A DNA stretch of 64,000 nt from Blepharisma japonicum (lineage: Eukaryota; Ciliophora; Heterotrichea; Heterotrichida; Blepharismidae): positions 124,001-188,000 of the forward strand of contig CATKHK010000030.1 of assembly GCA_949751835.1 (NCBI GenBank), read 5' to 3'. Numbering within the stretch: position 1 is the first letter of the stretch; each line of letters opens with the position of its first letter. Positions 1 to 41,079 of this stretch are shown here, piece after piece. The notes beneath the pieces are model-generated. The model made no database searches. It was not told where the DNA came from and saw only the letters and a list, made by a program, of their open reading frames with translations. The translations under genes and the position numbers were made by a program.

Positions 1-3000
1 TGTCTAAATCAACATAAGCTTCTTCTATTTTGTTGGTGTATTTTTGGATGCTATTAGTTGCCCACTTTTCTATCAAACTACATCTGAATATAAATATTTT
101 ATTATTTTTTTCGATTTCAGCTAGGCCTGAAACTATAGATTTCTTAGCAGTTTCTATCAAAAGATCCAAAACAGGAATAATATTACCAGCTTGCACTTCA
201 AGATTCCAATTTATTTTTAAAATTGGTGTTGGAAATTCAGAAAATTCAGTTTCTGTTGTAAGAGCTTTAAACAAATGAATTAGGTTCATGATTGCATAAT
301 ATTTATTGATTTCAACCTGGAGTAATTGTCTAGCAAGTTTGATGATTCCAGTCAATTCTTTATTTAGAGGAGAGTCTTTCATAATTTCATCTCTATGTGA
401 AATTGCATCTATTTTCCTTCTGTCTGTAATGTCCCATAATAAATCAATCAGCTCTCCTATTTCAGCATAGGTTTGGCTTAATTCAGAAGAGCTAAATACT
501 GTTTTCGCAACAACAAGTCCGTTTAGTCCTTTTATAAAATTATTTAAAATACTTTCTTTTTCGTCATTCCTTTCCAAAAATTCTCTAAACTCATTACCCA
601 TTTCTTGCAAATGCAATAAATATCTTTCTCAATGCATATCTATTAATTTTAATGAAAATCCGAGATCTTTTAGATATTGAAATTTCATTGACTCCCATTT
701 ATCAGCTATAAGCTTTGCACTATCTCTACTTAAATTTAGTGTTTGGCCATTGAAAATAATAGTGCTAACTTCTTCGTTGTTTCCAGGTTGAGATTTAATT
801 ATAGAAATATCAGTAAGTCTTTTTTTAATAATTTCACTAACAACCTCTATAGGCTGATTCGCATCAAAAAATAGCAAAGTTTCCCATCTATCCCCAAATT
901 CGCTAAAACATCTATATAGCTCTTCTTTTCTTTCATTAAAATCTTGTATTTCTTTTTTTAATTCTTCCTCTGTAGGCTTATCAATTGGCTTGCACTTATT
1001 TAGAATATTGTCAGGTGGTGGACGATATGTCAAATTATAAATATTTCCACTATTGTCTACTCTTCTATCAACACATCTTCTAATTAGAGTATTTTTCTCT
1101 ACATCAAGTCAAATTACTAAATCGAAAACACTTCTGAATGGTTTTGGAGGAGGATATTCTTTAGGAGAAGGAAATGCTATAATTTGTGCTTCACGTTTTT
1201 TAATAGATGATAGCGACTCAGGAAGCTCTGAAGGATGAACAAACCCTCCTAGTTCTTTTTCAACATCAATTACTTCTTCCGCTGAACTTGGATAGCTTAA
1301 AATAGCAAAGCCTTGACATTTGACTTCTTCTTTTTTCCCAGGCTTTTTTACCTCTTCCTCTAATTTTGGCTCATCTCCAAACACTCCTCTTAGCCTTCCT
1401 CTTAATAGCTTTGATCTTCCATTTGTTGTTTCCGTACTATTCTCTAATGCTGCCTGTATAAAAATTTCAGGCTCTTCTTCGACTGGTTTTCGTCTTTTAG
1501 GATCATCAGGCTCTGATTTTCTTTGGACAACTTTTATAGCATCTTCTATAATCTTTTGCATCTCAAATATTTTTAACCCAAATAATTCCTGCAATTTTTT
1601 GGCTTGAGTTTTTCTGCCTGAAAAAGGAGGACCAATTATACAAATTTTGTAGGGAAGATAGTGAGGCCCTGGAGGTAAAGGAGGTAACGGATCAGGAGGA
1701 TAAGCAGCGTCCATCACAGCTTCAATAATATCTCCAATGTATTCATCATTTGGCACACTTTCTGCTTCCCATATCCCTTCTGCATTTAAATAGTCATTTA
1801 ATTCTTTTTTTTCAATTTGTACAGAGGTTTTGGGTTCTCCAAATTCATCACTTTCTTCTGCAACTTCAGAAATATTAGCTTGATCTATCAAAGAATTAGA
1901 TTCTTCAGCCCATGGTGGAAGACCATCTTTAAATTTTTCTATTCATCCATTTCATATTTTTTCAGGGATTTTTGGGTTTTCTTTTAAATAACTTGCAGAC
2001 TCTTCAGCTAAATCTAAAATTAAATTCATTACTGGGCTGCATTCTTTTTGGTGCTTTTCTCTACTGGATTTCATTCCTTCAATGATTTTCCTTTTAATTT
2101 CTAATTTTTTCTCAGGAAGCTCTTTGAGAACCTTGTTATTCATTTCTTCAATTTCTAATTGTCGTTGAGCTTCAACTGGTCCTCATTTTTGCATACTTTT
2201 TTCCATGATTTCTTTGATATTTTTCTCAGCTTCTTGTGTATCTCTGATAAATTTTGAAAACTTTTTTACTTTTTTAATTCCAAACCCAAGAATGCCATAA
2301 ATTGGCTTTGCTAGGCCTTCGATAAGTGCTTTTATATGATTTCTATAAATATCAATTTTTTTAGTTCTTAACTGCTCTACATGGATTTTTCTTTGTCTTA
2401 TTTCTTTTTCTTTTGCAGCCTGAACATTTTTGCTTTTATTTTCCTTAATTTTTGCCATAGTAACAGCTGCTTCAGTTTTCAAATTTTGTTTCTGTTTTTT
2501 CCTTTCAGGCTCTTCGCTGACATGGTCAATCCCTAATCTTGTCATATTTCTTTCGAATTCATCTATTCCTTCATTAGCATCTAAAGCGTTTCCATCTATA
2601 TATTTGATTTGGGTATTTTTGAAGTCCTGTGCTAATTTTGTTTTCAATTCAAATTCTTTTTGTTTTCTTGATGCTAAATTAGACTGATTTTTCTTTCACT
2701 CTTTTTTACCTTCCTCTTCCCATTGCTGCATAAACAATTTATTTTCTTTGATTGCGTCTAAGTGAGTTTTTCTTGCTTCTCCTTGCATTTTTTTAATAAT
2801 TTCTTCAGTCTTTTGGTGGTCTTCATAAGCCTTTTTAGACTGCTTTATTCTTTCTTCTTCAAACTTTTGCAGCCGTTGAGCCATCCTTTCTGTTTTTGAA
2901 ATTAATTTAATCGAAACTGCTGATTTAGGTTTTGCAGCTAGAAGAGCACGAGGATCTAGAGTATGAAGAGCTTTAAATAAATTGCTAAGCACCTTTTTAG

Positions 3001-3235
3001 AATATCCAAGTTCTTTGTTCATAAGCCTCTGCGGATCAAATTTTAATCTTAGCCTTTCAAATGATAGCTGGACTTTTGCCAAATTACTTGAAGCGAACTT
3101 TGATTTGTTGATAAATTGGCCAAAATCTTCTTGGCGATCATATCTATATAAAATTTGGCCTAGCAAATAACCATTAGAGAAGTCTTCTTCATAATTTGAG
3201 ATGGAAAATCCTAAGTCTGCAAGTCAATTTTCCAT
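1..3235 (-). CDS. SPEF2: SPEF2/CPC1-like axonemal central-pair protein (3' end outside window)
   Basis: At least 1078 residues, read from the ATG at 3235 through six in-frame TGA codons taken as Trp; no frame change, so no intron. The N-terminal ~110 residues are a CH-like (SPEF) domain with the signature YLLGQILYRYDRQEDF. A long Lys/Glu-rich coiled coil follows, and near residue 530 there is an adenylate-kinase-type P-loop, IIGPPFSGRKTQ, followed by a kinase-like region with the RRCVDRR and YRPPPDN elements. CH + coiled coil + ADK is the order known for SPEF2/KPL2 and Chlamydomonas CPC1, which sit on the C1b projection of the central pair and affect ciliary beating. The coding frame is still open at position 1, so the C-terminus is missing. 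Function is inferred from domain order. Confidence 0.88.
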
Positions 3236-3406
3236 TTTTATTAATTTATATAATTCAAAGGGAAACAGATGATTTTATGATGTATACAATATCAATAATT
3301 ATTAACTATTACTAAAGATTATTATAAAGGTTTAAAAAATTTAATGATGAAATGAAAAATTAAAAGTTAAAACACTAAAATAAATGTGCATTTATTATTT
3401 ATACTC

Positions 3407-3592
3407 TTACACCCTTATAGCTTTTCATAAGGCTAGTTTCTTAGTTTCTGCCTTATTTCTATCGTTTTGCTGCCTTTTTGCTTTACAAATAGAGCTGGAA
3501 AACAACGAACAATGAGATTTCTTGCCATATTCAGTAATAAACAAGGATGGATAAGCCTCAATTATTTCTTTAATTTCAATAAGATTTGGCAT
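3407..3592 (-). CDS. hypothetical 61-residue protein
   Basis: Short frame with ATG at 3592, TAA at 3407-3409 and one TGA read as Trp. The product is basic in its C-terminal half (KAKRQQNDRNKAETKK) and starts MPNLIEIKEIIEAYP. It lies in the 460-bp gap between the LRR gene and SPEF2, on their strand. The balanced, charged composition looks better than the surrounding AT-rich DNA, but I recognise no family and it could be a relic or a chance frame. Confidence 0.3.
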
Positions 3593-3700
3593 ATTTTATG
3601 ATATTTTATTGATAATCAATGAATCCAAATTTTATTTCGCTTATTTGATTATATACAATGTGTAATTAACTTAAGTAGCAATACTAATTTACATTGCATG

Positions 3701-4495
3701 TTACAAAATAACTTGTAAAAACCGATTAGCTTCAAAAAGAAATCTGAGTTTCAAGTTAGTGTTGTTTCTTGAAAGATCAAGATATTTCAAGGTTGAAAAG
3801 TTCTTAGCAATATATTTTGCTCCGATGTCAGAAATCATATTATCACAAACATCAAGAGCCTTGAGACTTGGAAGATTGTATCAAATTTTGCCCAAGGTAA
3901 AAACTCCTTCATCTTCAATCGAATTTTGCTTTAAACTTAAAACCTCTAGACCTTCTAATTTAGCTAAATTGGCACATAGACACTTCATACCATAGGATTT
4001 TAAATTATTTCTGTCCAAGTACAACTCTTTAAGCTTTCTCAAGCGCTTAAATGGATTTAATTGTTGAATCCCATCAACAGAAAATCTGTTCCCCTCAATG
4101 CCCAAAACCTCAAGATTAATCATTTGCTCGATAGAATGTGATAATCTTTTAACATGTACATTCATAATCTCAATGTTACTTAACTTGAGAATTTTTATAT
4201 GTGTAAAATAAGATGTTATCATCTGAAAATGATAAATACCATCTAAACCAAATGGAATAAAATTTAAATTAATTTCGTCGATTTCAGATTCTTCATGGAC
4301 AAAAATCGCCTCAAAAATACTTTTAAAAGATGATGGCATTTTTGAATTGCTTGCATAGTAAGATAGTAAAAGTTTTAAATTTGGCTTAATAGGGGAGTCT
4401 AAATAATAATTGCCATCTGCTGTTGATGCGGAAAGAGGTGATACTTTTGGCTTGATCACTCTTGCTTTCGATTTATGTTGTTGGCAGCAGCCCAT
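3701..4495 (-). CDS. leucine-rich-repeat protein with N-terminal acylation motif
   Basis: 264 residues; ATG at 4495, one TGA read as Trp near residue 205, TAA at 3701. The N-terminus MGCCQQHKS fits N-myristoylation at Gly2 plus palmitoylation at Cys3/Cys4, so the protein is probably membrane-tethered. From about residue 100 it carries ribonuclease-inhibitor-like LRRs, for example LKELYLDRNNLKSYG, LEVLSLKQNSIEDEG and LKALDVCDNMISDIG, ending with LKYLDLSRNN. LRR repeats bind proteins; the partner cannot be told. It is the first of four Met-Gly-Cys proteins in this window. No upstream gene within 1.5 kb. Confidence 0.8.
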
Positions 4496-9702: not shown

Positions 9703-10815
9703 CTATAAATACAAAGCTACTTCTTGCTCCTGCATTTTATAATCGCTATTCTCTTCATCATCGTCAATCTCTTTATCCTCCCCTTTTCCCTCTCTCCCTT
9801 GAAAGCTTAAATCTTGAATAGGTAAAAATCCATTTGAATTCTTCAAATATTCAGCTACCAAATTATTATTTCTCTCATAAAGTTCTGAGCTTGGTGGTAA
9901 AATTAGATTCCCCTCGTCTATCGAGTTTTCAAATTTATTAATTCATATATCAATATAATTTGGATCAATATTGCAAGCATTTGCAGCTGCCTCTTTGCTA
10001 TTTGTTTTGTAATAATAATATAGTGTATTTCGGATAGTATCTCTTGGGATTTCTCCTTCAGATTGTATAGAATCTTCATCGCTTAGTTCTCTTCCTTCAC
10101 TTGATGCATTAATTCAATGTTGAAGCTTATAAAATGGCATCCCTAATTCATTGGCTAAACTTTGTTTTGAGACGCCTTCAGCTATTTTATTTATTATGAT
10201 TTGTTTAGATTCAGCAGATTTTAAAAGATCATATGGAGATAATTCGCCTAATAAGTTCATGACCCTTTTTTTGGGGCATTTCATTTTTTTGCCTATATCT
10301 CTAATAGAAAGTCCTTGGTTTTGTAGCCTTTCACATTCAGCTTTCATTTCAGCCATTTTTTGTTGGATTTCTTCGGGAGCTTGCTTTCAATTGCCAATAC
10401 CATGAATACGATCTGGGCTAAGGCTAAAAAGTTTTGCAATAAGAAGAGGATTAACATTTTTCGAGTATAAATCTCGAACTTTGGATTTTATTTGATCCAT
10501 ATGAGCACATAGCTGTTGATCAGAATTTTTTGCCTTTTTGGCTATTGGGGTGTAGGTAGGGGACTCTTTCTGGCGTTTTATTGGAAGCGAAACTTCAGGT
10601 TTTTTGTCATCTAAAGGTTGAAATTTAATAGTTTTACAAGATTTCGTTTCTGAAAGAGGAAGCAAATGATTTTGGAAAAAGTTATACATTTCTTCATCAA
10701 AAGTTTGGATAAAGGCTTGGAACCGGGTTTGAGCAATTCTTTGTATTCCCATAAATTTTTTGAAGATTTCAATGACATCACTAGTTTCTTCAGACATTAA
10801 TTTTATATCCCCCAT
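9703..10815 (-). CDS. tandem helix-turn-helix protein, member 1 of a two-gene family
   Basis: 370 residues; ATG at 10815, TAG at 9703; three TGA codons read as Trp and no TGG. After an N-terminal helical segment (about 12-55) and a basic linker, four HTH-like units follow at about residues 105-145, 155-195, 200-240 and 260-300. Cores are NVNPLLIAKLFSLSPDRIHG, GLSIRDIGKKMKCPKKRV, GVSKQSLANELGMPFYKLQH and TNSKEAAANACNIDPNYID. Three of the units end in a Trp coded by TGA (after HGIGN, KLQH and YIDI), as in HTH units of transposases and homeodomain-like proteins. The acidic tail includes EDKEIDDDEEN. The gene at 39946-41079 has the same N-terminal helix and the same four units in the same order. 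DNA binding is inferred; no nuclease or transposase catalytic domain is visible. Confidence 0.75.
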
Positions 10816-39945: not shown

Positions 39946-41079
39946 ATGGCATACTCAGAAAATGATAAATCGATTTTAGAATTTTATGCAGCACTTTCAA
40001 CTCTTCACCAAGAAGCCCAAAACCGAGTTAATAGTGTTTTCGAGGGCCTAAAACAAGAAGCAATAGCTTTTTTGCACAAATCACTTTTTTCTCGATTAAA
40101 TTTAATGCATGATGAAAATGAAAATTTAAAAGAAAACAATAAACAAAACACCGAAATCGTAGAAAAAGAAAAAAAAAAAGACAAAAAAGATTATAATTCA
40201 AATAAAGAACATGAATTAACACAAAAATGTAAAATAAAGAAAGAAAGCGAAGAAAATGAGGAAAATAAATGAAATAATGAAAGTAAAGAATGTGAAGAAA
40301 TAACAGAATTTGAAGAGAATGAAGGAAATATAGTAAATAGAGACTTTGAAGATGATAAAGTAAACTTGGTGACTAATCCACTTCCAGCAAAAAGGCTAAG
40401 AGAAGCCACTGACAGAGAAGTATATCCTGCATTCTTAGATGAATACAAACCCAAAATTGCAGAGCGTAAAGAAATGATTTGCAGACTCTACTCTTCTAAC
40501 GTTTCACCAAAACTCATCGGAAGACTGCTCAGCTTATCTGTAAACGCAGTTCACATTATTGGAGACTGAAAACAAGTTTCTCAAAAAATTGCTCAAAGAA
40601 ATCGAGAAACCCGTCAAAAACTAAAAAAATTATTATCAGATGGCCACCCATTCCAAGAAGTAGTTAAGCATTCTGGCTTGAACAACACGACAGCAAGTGT
40701 TATGCTAGATGAATACCCTATATGTCTTGTAATTAAATCTCCAGAAGAAAAGAGAAGTTTCATAGAAAAAGCAGTCAATAATAACATATCAAAGAGATTA
40801 TTAGCAAGAGTTACCAGAATACAGCCTGCCAAGATTTACACATGAGCGAACCGTTTGAATAATAATGAAGATTTTAGTGATGAGGAATGCATCGAAGATA
40901 AAAGTGGAGAATATAGCAGGGAAACTATAAGAAAAACTGTATATGATTATTATCTTAACAAATCAATAGAAGGTGCTGCTGAAAGGAATGGAGTTTCAAA
41001 TCTAGTGAAAATAGAAGAGTGAATCAGGACTATAAAGGATCTTAAAAAACATAGAAGAGATGAAAATGGTTTTGAATAA
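39946..41079 (+). CDS. tandem helix-turn-helix protein, member 2 of a two-gene family
   Basis: 377 residues, ATG at 39946, TAA at 41077; four TGA codons read as Trp and no TGG. The N-terminal helix (about 10-45) is followed by a Lys/Glu-rich linker, then four HTH-like units at about 168-209, 212-255, 262-300 and 318-352. Cores are NVSPKLIGRLLSLSVNAVHI, GHPFQEVVKHSGLNNTTA, NISKRLLARVTRIQPAKIYT and NKSIEGAAERNGVSNLVKIE. Units 1, 3 and 4 end with a TGA-coded Trp. It is collinear with the gene at 9703-10815; best-conserved are unit 1 and the RETIRKTVYDYYLNKS / RDTIRNTLYYYYKTNS segment before unit 4. DNA binding is inferred. No catalytic domain seen. Confidence 0.75.

Follow-up and report, generated by a model that had tools for sequence, protein, structure and literature searches.

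Which function could be served by a protein that is built of four consecutive helix-turn-helix (HTH) units and carries no recognisable enzyme? This question is raised by a gene at 9703..10815 of a 64,000-nucleotide stretch of the Blepharisma japonicum genome (contig CATKHK010000030.1, positions 124,001 to 188,000; the whole stretch is called the window), whose product is named P0001 here, and by a second gene of the window, at 39946..41079, coding for P0002. To our knowledge, the gene-regulating proteins of heterotrich ciliates are poorly known. Both products belong to a family whose members, as judged from sequence comparison and structure models, are probably non-enzymatic nuclear regulators of chromatin or transcription that would bind specific DNA sequences through tandem HTH units. 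Some 28 related loci would be candidates for regulating ordinary transcription or sexual nuclear development in Blepharisma, and the family, if read correctly, would show how DNA-binding parts of transposon type are reused in proteins of several units.

Predicted Structure of the Two Window Proteins

The AlphaFold2 model of P0001, calculated from nine aligned sequences, shows one helix at the N-terminus followed by four three-helix units in a row. Structure prediction had been proposed as a check in an earlier note on this DNA, and the four HTH folds that it had described were recovered. Helices were placed at residues 92-118, 123-130 and 134-141 in unit 1, at 148-166, 171-178 and 182-189 in unit 2, at 201-212, 217-224 and 228-239 in unit 3, and at 258-271, 274-281 and 285-297 in unit 4. 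Block values of the predicted local distance difference test (pLDDT) were 86-96 for residues 101-300 and 69-81 across residues 11-50 of the N-terminal helix, while linker and tail were of low confidence. The features of this gene, which belongs to group A of the family, are:

9703..10815, reverse strand: group A tandem-HTH gene for P0001, a 370-codon open frame with TGA read as tryptophan (Trp); the start is possibly at 10797 (second Met)
10663..10797, reverse strand: long N-terminal helix, residues 7-51, from the AlphaFold2 model and a weak profile match between groups A and B; may be a dimerisation element
10567..10584, reverse strand: P-x-K-R-x-K motif, residues 78-83, in a disordered linker; presumably nuclear-localisation-like
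10387..10497, reverse strand: HTH unit 1, residues 107-143 (AlphaFold2 model and hhalign)
10243..10374, reverse strand: HTH unit 2, residues 148-191 (AlphaFold2 model and hhalign)
10099..10215, reverse strand: HTH unit 3, residues 201-239, CENP-B_N/pogo-like (model and hhalign)
9925..10044, reverse strand: HTH unit 4, residues 258-297 (AlphaFold2 model and hhalign)

The Blepharisma stoltei orthologue of P0001 is 87% identical and begins at the second Met (10797); for the B. stoltei orthologues taken together, identity is about 87-91%. Length differences between P0001 and its orthologue amount to 6 residues at the start and 4 near the end, and their comparison revealed no gap of five residues that would point to a hidden intron. 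The available text of PMC9942806 describes UGA as a Trp codon and introns of mostly 15 and 16 bp in B. stoltei.

P0001 and P0002 could be aligned over about 220 residues with 32% identity (BLASTP E 1e-24 as a single comparison, 6.2e-18 in the genome search). The earlier note had seen little identity between them outside the structural positions; this does not hold, as runs such as LYSxNVxPxLI are common to both proteins in the BLASTP alignment. Its statement that no catalytic domain is attached was borne out, since Pfam at E <= 10 gave no credible enzyme domain for either protein. The evidence for the fold comes from the models of P0001 and of its group C relative P0008, and the units of P0002 follow from the alignment:

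39946..41079, forward strand: group B tandem-HTH gene for P0002, a 377-codon open frame with TGA read as Trp
39967..40095, forward strand: N-terminal helix region, placed by alignment
40384..40401, forward strand: P-x-K-R-x-R motif, residues 147-152, from a motif scan
40459..40569, forward strand: HTH unit 1, placed by alignment
40582..40713, forward strand: HTH unit 2, placed by alignment
40741..40860, forward strand: HTH unit 3, placed by alignment
40918..41040, forward strand: HTH unit 4, placed by alignment

Family Size and Order of the Units

Instead of the two-gene family assumed before, a search of the 45.2 Mb assembly (224 contigs) with P0001, P0002 and their relatives yielded 17 core loci, which fall into three groups. 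Group A contains P0001, L024, L025 and L026, group B P0002 and L027-L030, and group C L018-L021, two genes at L022, L023 and L032; the maximum-likelihood tree supports them with 97/95, 82/78 and 100/100, respectively. A single open frame runs through the core at every locus. L018 has no clear start, and unit 4 is shortened in L020 and L030.

In the hhalign comparisons across subfamilies, each unit had its best match in the unit of the same number in 12/12 rows, so that the four units were probably inherited as one block. When read by column, there was one exception, with unit 3 of group C closer to unit 4 of group B (84.8) than to unit 3 of that group (44.0). Thus, the part of the proposed common layout that concerns the four units in the same order stood, whereas the shared N-terminal helix is weak between groups A and B (hhalign probability 55%, P 1.2e-4). 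Between groups, units 1 and 2 resemble each other with probabilities of 12-89% and units 3 and 4 with 2.5-90%, which is only suggestive of an internal duplication behind each pair.

At three loci, further details were observed. At L022 (contig C9), the two group C genes, at 1407-2450 (+) and 2618-3727 (-), are convergent with about 170 bp between them, which suggests a local duplication. At L018 (about 908-2429), two tandem copies of the N-domain described below lie upstream of one group C core with stops between them, so that the gene model would need introns or two genes. On contig C73, the frame L039 (1877-2488, reverse strand), which lies immediately upstream of L027 of group B, contains a HTH_23-like unit of 21.3 bits, below the cut-off, and possibly a second HTH unit found by eye.

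Charge, Conservation and Selection

Mean net charges of units 1-4 among the 17 members were +1.3, +1.9, +3.6 and -0.6, and those of helix 3 in these units were -0.8, -0.2, +0.6 and +0.2. In all four members of group A, helix 3 of unit 2 opens with a basic PKK[KR]. Conservation is highest in unit 1, where I126 and L129 are invariant and H138 is present in 16/17; helix 3 of this unit has a signature of the IHxxGxW type, which is not basic. Because of these charges and of the conservation and non-basic signature of unit 1, we regard unit 3 and, for group A, also unit 2 as the likeliest DNA readers, with units 1 and 4 possibly structural. The residues of helix 3 in unit 3 vary between the groups and inside groups B and C and are alike inside group A, as would fit a recognition of different sites by many of the paralogues.

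Signs of purifying selection were obtained where it was tested. The ratio of nonsynonymous to synonymous differences per site (pN/pS) was 0.26 for L019/L021, 0.25 for L024/L025 and 0.30 for L034/L038; all of these values are rough, since the synonymous divergence (dS) ranges from 1.1 to 3.6 and so approaches or reaches saturation. In six pairs of B. stoltei orthologues, identity was 87-96% in the core and 84-92% outside it.

Resemblance to Known HTH Families

The affinity to transposase-type HTHs that the earlier note had supposed was found across the family, with matches to HTH_23/28, HTH_Tnp_1, HTH_SB and CENP-B_N. Matches at E <= 1 to HTH_23 and HTH_28 occurred in 13 and 14, respectively, of 18 alignment members, and 7/20 relatives lie above a Pfam HTH cut-off; HTH_23 reaches its gathering cut-off in P0004, P0008 and P0009, and HTH_28 in P0004, P0008, L036 and L040. 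On these profiles and the predicted fold, the units are classed as homeodomain-like HTHs of the transposase type. They are like HTH_23 and HTH_28 in the predicted three-helix fold of P0001 and P0008, but here four units stand in a set order without an enzyme, and group C adds one confident and one tentative unit.

Other known systems share single traits with the family. Unit 3 resembles the CENP-B_N part of the CENP-B/pogo/Distal antenna domain, whose cut-off is passed by P0009 (21.6 vs 21.2 bits); P0001 reaches 14.1 of 21.2 bits for CENP-B_N with Tc5 unlisted, and both window proteins lack a match to the Tc5 half. Drosophila Pipsqueak combines four Psq HTH repeats with a BTB domain and would be functionally similar in being a nuclear regulator with tandem transposase-type HTHs. 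However, neither HTH_psq nor BTB was found in the Pfam tables of 22 single proteins, and the units of the present family are strongly diverged among themselves. The same tables contain no Myb match, and in contrast to Myb R1R2R3 the conserved Trp occurs once, in helix 3, of units 1, 3 and 4. At unit 2, the family profile matched the PAI subdomain of Sleeping Beauty (E 0.0035); a possible relation to the bipartite PAI-RED structure of the paired (Pax) domain was considered. The best sequence-profile match in the PDB was the 'CAP repeat' chain 8VD6 (E 9.1e-12), of which five stretches each fell on the section of the family profile that represents unit 2; this chain consists of near-identical copies of a single motif and looks like a designed protein rather than a natural relative.

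No curated Pfam family covers the four-unit array, in line with the earlier view that no named family has this layout, and titles and abstract beginnings of the open-licence papers retrieved name no such ciliate family. Protein searches beyond the own genome found 7 distinct proteins, of which 6 belong to B. stoltei and the seventh (P0007, 52% identity) is an unnamed protein from a metagenome. Outside Blepharisma these searches were shallow, with two of them scoring top word-sharing candidates only, and they found 6 B. stoltei proteins where about 17 were expected, so absence elsewhere is not implied. With regard to a viral origin, viral contigs were scanned once for patterns of the group C alignment; the 110 hits included no relative, which, like the BFVD result given below, leaves such an origin possible.

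The N-Domain of Group C and Its Tc5-Bearing Relatives

Proteins of group C open with an extra N-domain, which in the model of P0008 consists of helices 3-13/15-22/26-33 (block pLDDT 80-92) and 42-58/60-66/71-79 (low blocks of 50-70), corresponding to two additional HTH-like units, the first confident and the second tentative. The profile of this domain matched the N-termini of nine shorter proteins (probability 99.2%, P 1e-19). It is present at 11 further loci (L033-L038, L040-L042, L044 and L045), including L035 (E 0.007-0.011) and L037 (E 0.047), weakly supported by single-protein matches. Seven of the nine shorter proteins contain one excisable further HTH, which as a set is closest to unit 3 (96.6%); no further HTH was found in L035 and L041.

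In L042 (contig C95), L044 (C34) and L045 (C50), the N-domain and an HTH are followed by HTH_Tnp_Tc5, which reaches 31.1 bits in L042 against a cut-off of 22.2 and also attains the cut-off at C34 and C50. Seven places in the assembly carry Tc5. Four of them (C5, C24, C37 and C102), the only places in the assembly where DDE_1 was found, lie near this domain, and in three of the four (L047, L048 and L050) HTH_Tnp_Tc5 and DDE_1 share one open frame; the other three Tc5 places, L042, L044 and L045, are without DDE_1, and their frames stop after Tc5. The available text of PMC9942856 reports 10 partial matches in the macronuclear genome to a germline pogo transposase; they mostly cover HTH_Tnp_Tc5 and lack DDE_1, and 7 are located on contigs of low quality.

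Two observations concern the short N-domain proteins. L033, L034 and L038 have a C-terminal tail that contains DPFD, a possible cofactor-binding or activation motif. Next to each of L034 (874-1308) and L038 (1909-2343) lies a ribosomal S19-family gene, equal in length at both loci, which suggests a segmental duplication.

Proposed Function and Alternatives

In the function that we propose, the basic linker motif would import proteins of groups A and B into the nucleus, and the N-terminal helix (groups A and B) or the N-domain (group C) may mediate dimerisation or contact to a cofactor. The DNA sequence would be read by unit 3, assisted in group A by unit 2, while units 1 and 4 might stabilise the array or make contact with partners. 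The motif P.KR.[KR], which we take to resemble a monopartite nuclear import signal, occurs in the variable linker of 9/9 members of groups A and B, compared with a mean of 0.10 and a maximum of 3 in 2000 shuffles, a control that ignores common descent. The HTHs themselves, of the transposase/CENP-B type, were probably co-opted from DNA transposons, and L042, L044 and L045, with Tc5 and without DDE, would fit this. Transposon-derived regulators with related domains are known across animals, as described in the available text of PMC10027918.

Besides the neglect of common descent in the shuffles, several results weigh against this proposal. The charges of units 1, 2 and 4 leave the idea of four DNA readers unsupported. 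Both window proteins remain below the Pfam HTH gathering cut-offs (P0001 has 19.8 of 24.6 bits for HTH_23 and 17.3 of 25 for HTH_28, and P0002 is unlisted). The core is more conserved than the rest in just 3/6 orthologue pairs and slightly less conserved in the other 3/6, including P0001 (0.87 vs 0.92). The exact P.KR.[KR] was found in 0/8 group C members, each of which has some K[KR]x[KR]. The hhalign scores between HTH units may partly mirror their common fold, and no PDB chain matched the whole array at E <= 0.001, although a family's absence from such whole-array match lists carries no weight as evidence. Matches to the transposases of the genome are mixed. The Tc5 parts of L042, L044 and L045 match them moderately (86.5%), but their first HTHs match the transposases' first HTH at just 4.6% (phmmer E 0.097 at best). 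Unit 3 is the best match both for the transposases' first HTH (95.7%) and for that of the three proteins (91.5%), while Tc5 matches unit 4 at just 13.4%, leaving the interpretation of units 3-4 as CENP-B_N plus Tc5 unsupported for unit 4. Therefore, the units plausibly originated from HTHs of the transposase type, but descent from the particular pogo elements of this genome is unsupported.

Three other explanations were considered. The array could be a scaffold of HTH units for protein-protein contacts that has lost DNA binding, as helix 3 is non-basic in units 1 and 4 and conservation culminates in unit 1, whose helix 3 may be a structural or partner surface. We hold this to be rather unlikely, given the basic average of unit 3 (+3.6), the linker motif that suggests a nuclear protein, and relatives that exceed the cut-offs of DNA-binding HTH families. 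A role in developmental genome editing, in which the proteins would bind the ends of germline repeats or internal eliminated sequences, such as pogo-type miniature inverted-repeat transposable elements (MITEs), and direct the PiggyMac excisase or hold it back as the new macronucleus forms, would agree with transposase-type HTHs that lack a nuclease and with three N-domain genes of this genome that have Tc5 and lack DDE. The available text of PMC9942856 also describes a germline pogo-family transposon with abundant MITEs. Nevertheless, the window proteins have no Tc5 match and no CENP-B_N match at gathering level, and the neighbours give no hint, 6/9 of those scanned having ordinary domains (L7Ae-like, Sac phosphatase, PP2C, ankyrin, TOG/HEAT and kinesin) and 3/9 no Pfam match; we consider such a role unlikely.

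Genes of a mobile element, either a transposase fragment or a homing endonuclease, are suggested by the automatic UniRef names 'HNH homing endonuclease' (P0003) and 'Transposase' on two B. stoltei orthologues, and by the sole structure match in BFVD at E <= 0.001, a phage protein that bears the name endonuclease (E 3e-4, 17% identity, root mean square deviation 28 A). This is very improbable. Among the families that Pfam lists for the window proteins, P0003, P0004, P0006, P0008 and P0009, there is no nuclease or DDE domain, and HNH, LAGLIDADG and GIY-YIG were not found in P0003 at E <= 0.1; the frames are open, have B. stoltei orthologues and show paralogue pN/pS of 0.25-0.30. P0001 has no recent copies, because its closest paralogue in the own genome is just 51% identical, and there was no sign of its recent transposition, flanking terminal repeats not having been searched.

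Beyond nuclear regulators as such, the family might be a modular DNA-reading system of the heterotrichs' own, in which arrays of four to six HTH units of the transposase type were passed on as blocks and the recognition helices diversified between paralogues. Its members might be major lineage-specific regulators with a role like that of the ApiAP2 proteins of apicomplexans or the zinc-finger arrays of animals. We regard this wider view as possible but doubtful. The Tc5-bearing side branch without DDE may still show the step from transposase to regulator.

Trp Codons

The earlier note had drawn attention to TGA-coded Trp. All Trp codons are indeed TGA in P0001 (3/3) and P0002 (4/4), but paralogues often have TGG in these columns, and TGA failed as a signature of the family (23/62 vs 39/124 in other frames, Fisher p = 0.51). 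Among the Trp codons of 18 other long frames of the window, 12/74 are TGA, compared with 27/50 in 13 flanking frames at other loci; because of the latter, the apparent contrast within the window disappeared. TGA use differs strongly between genes, and TGA-coded Trp is incidental to the family.
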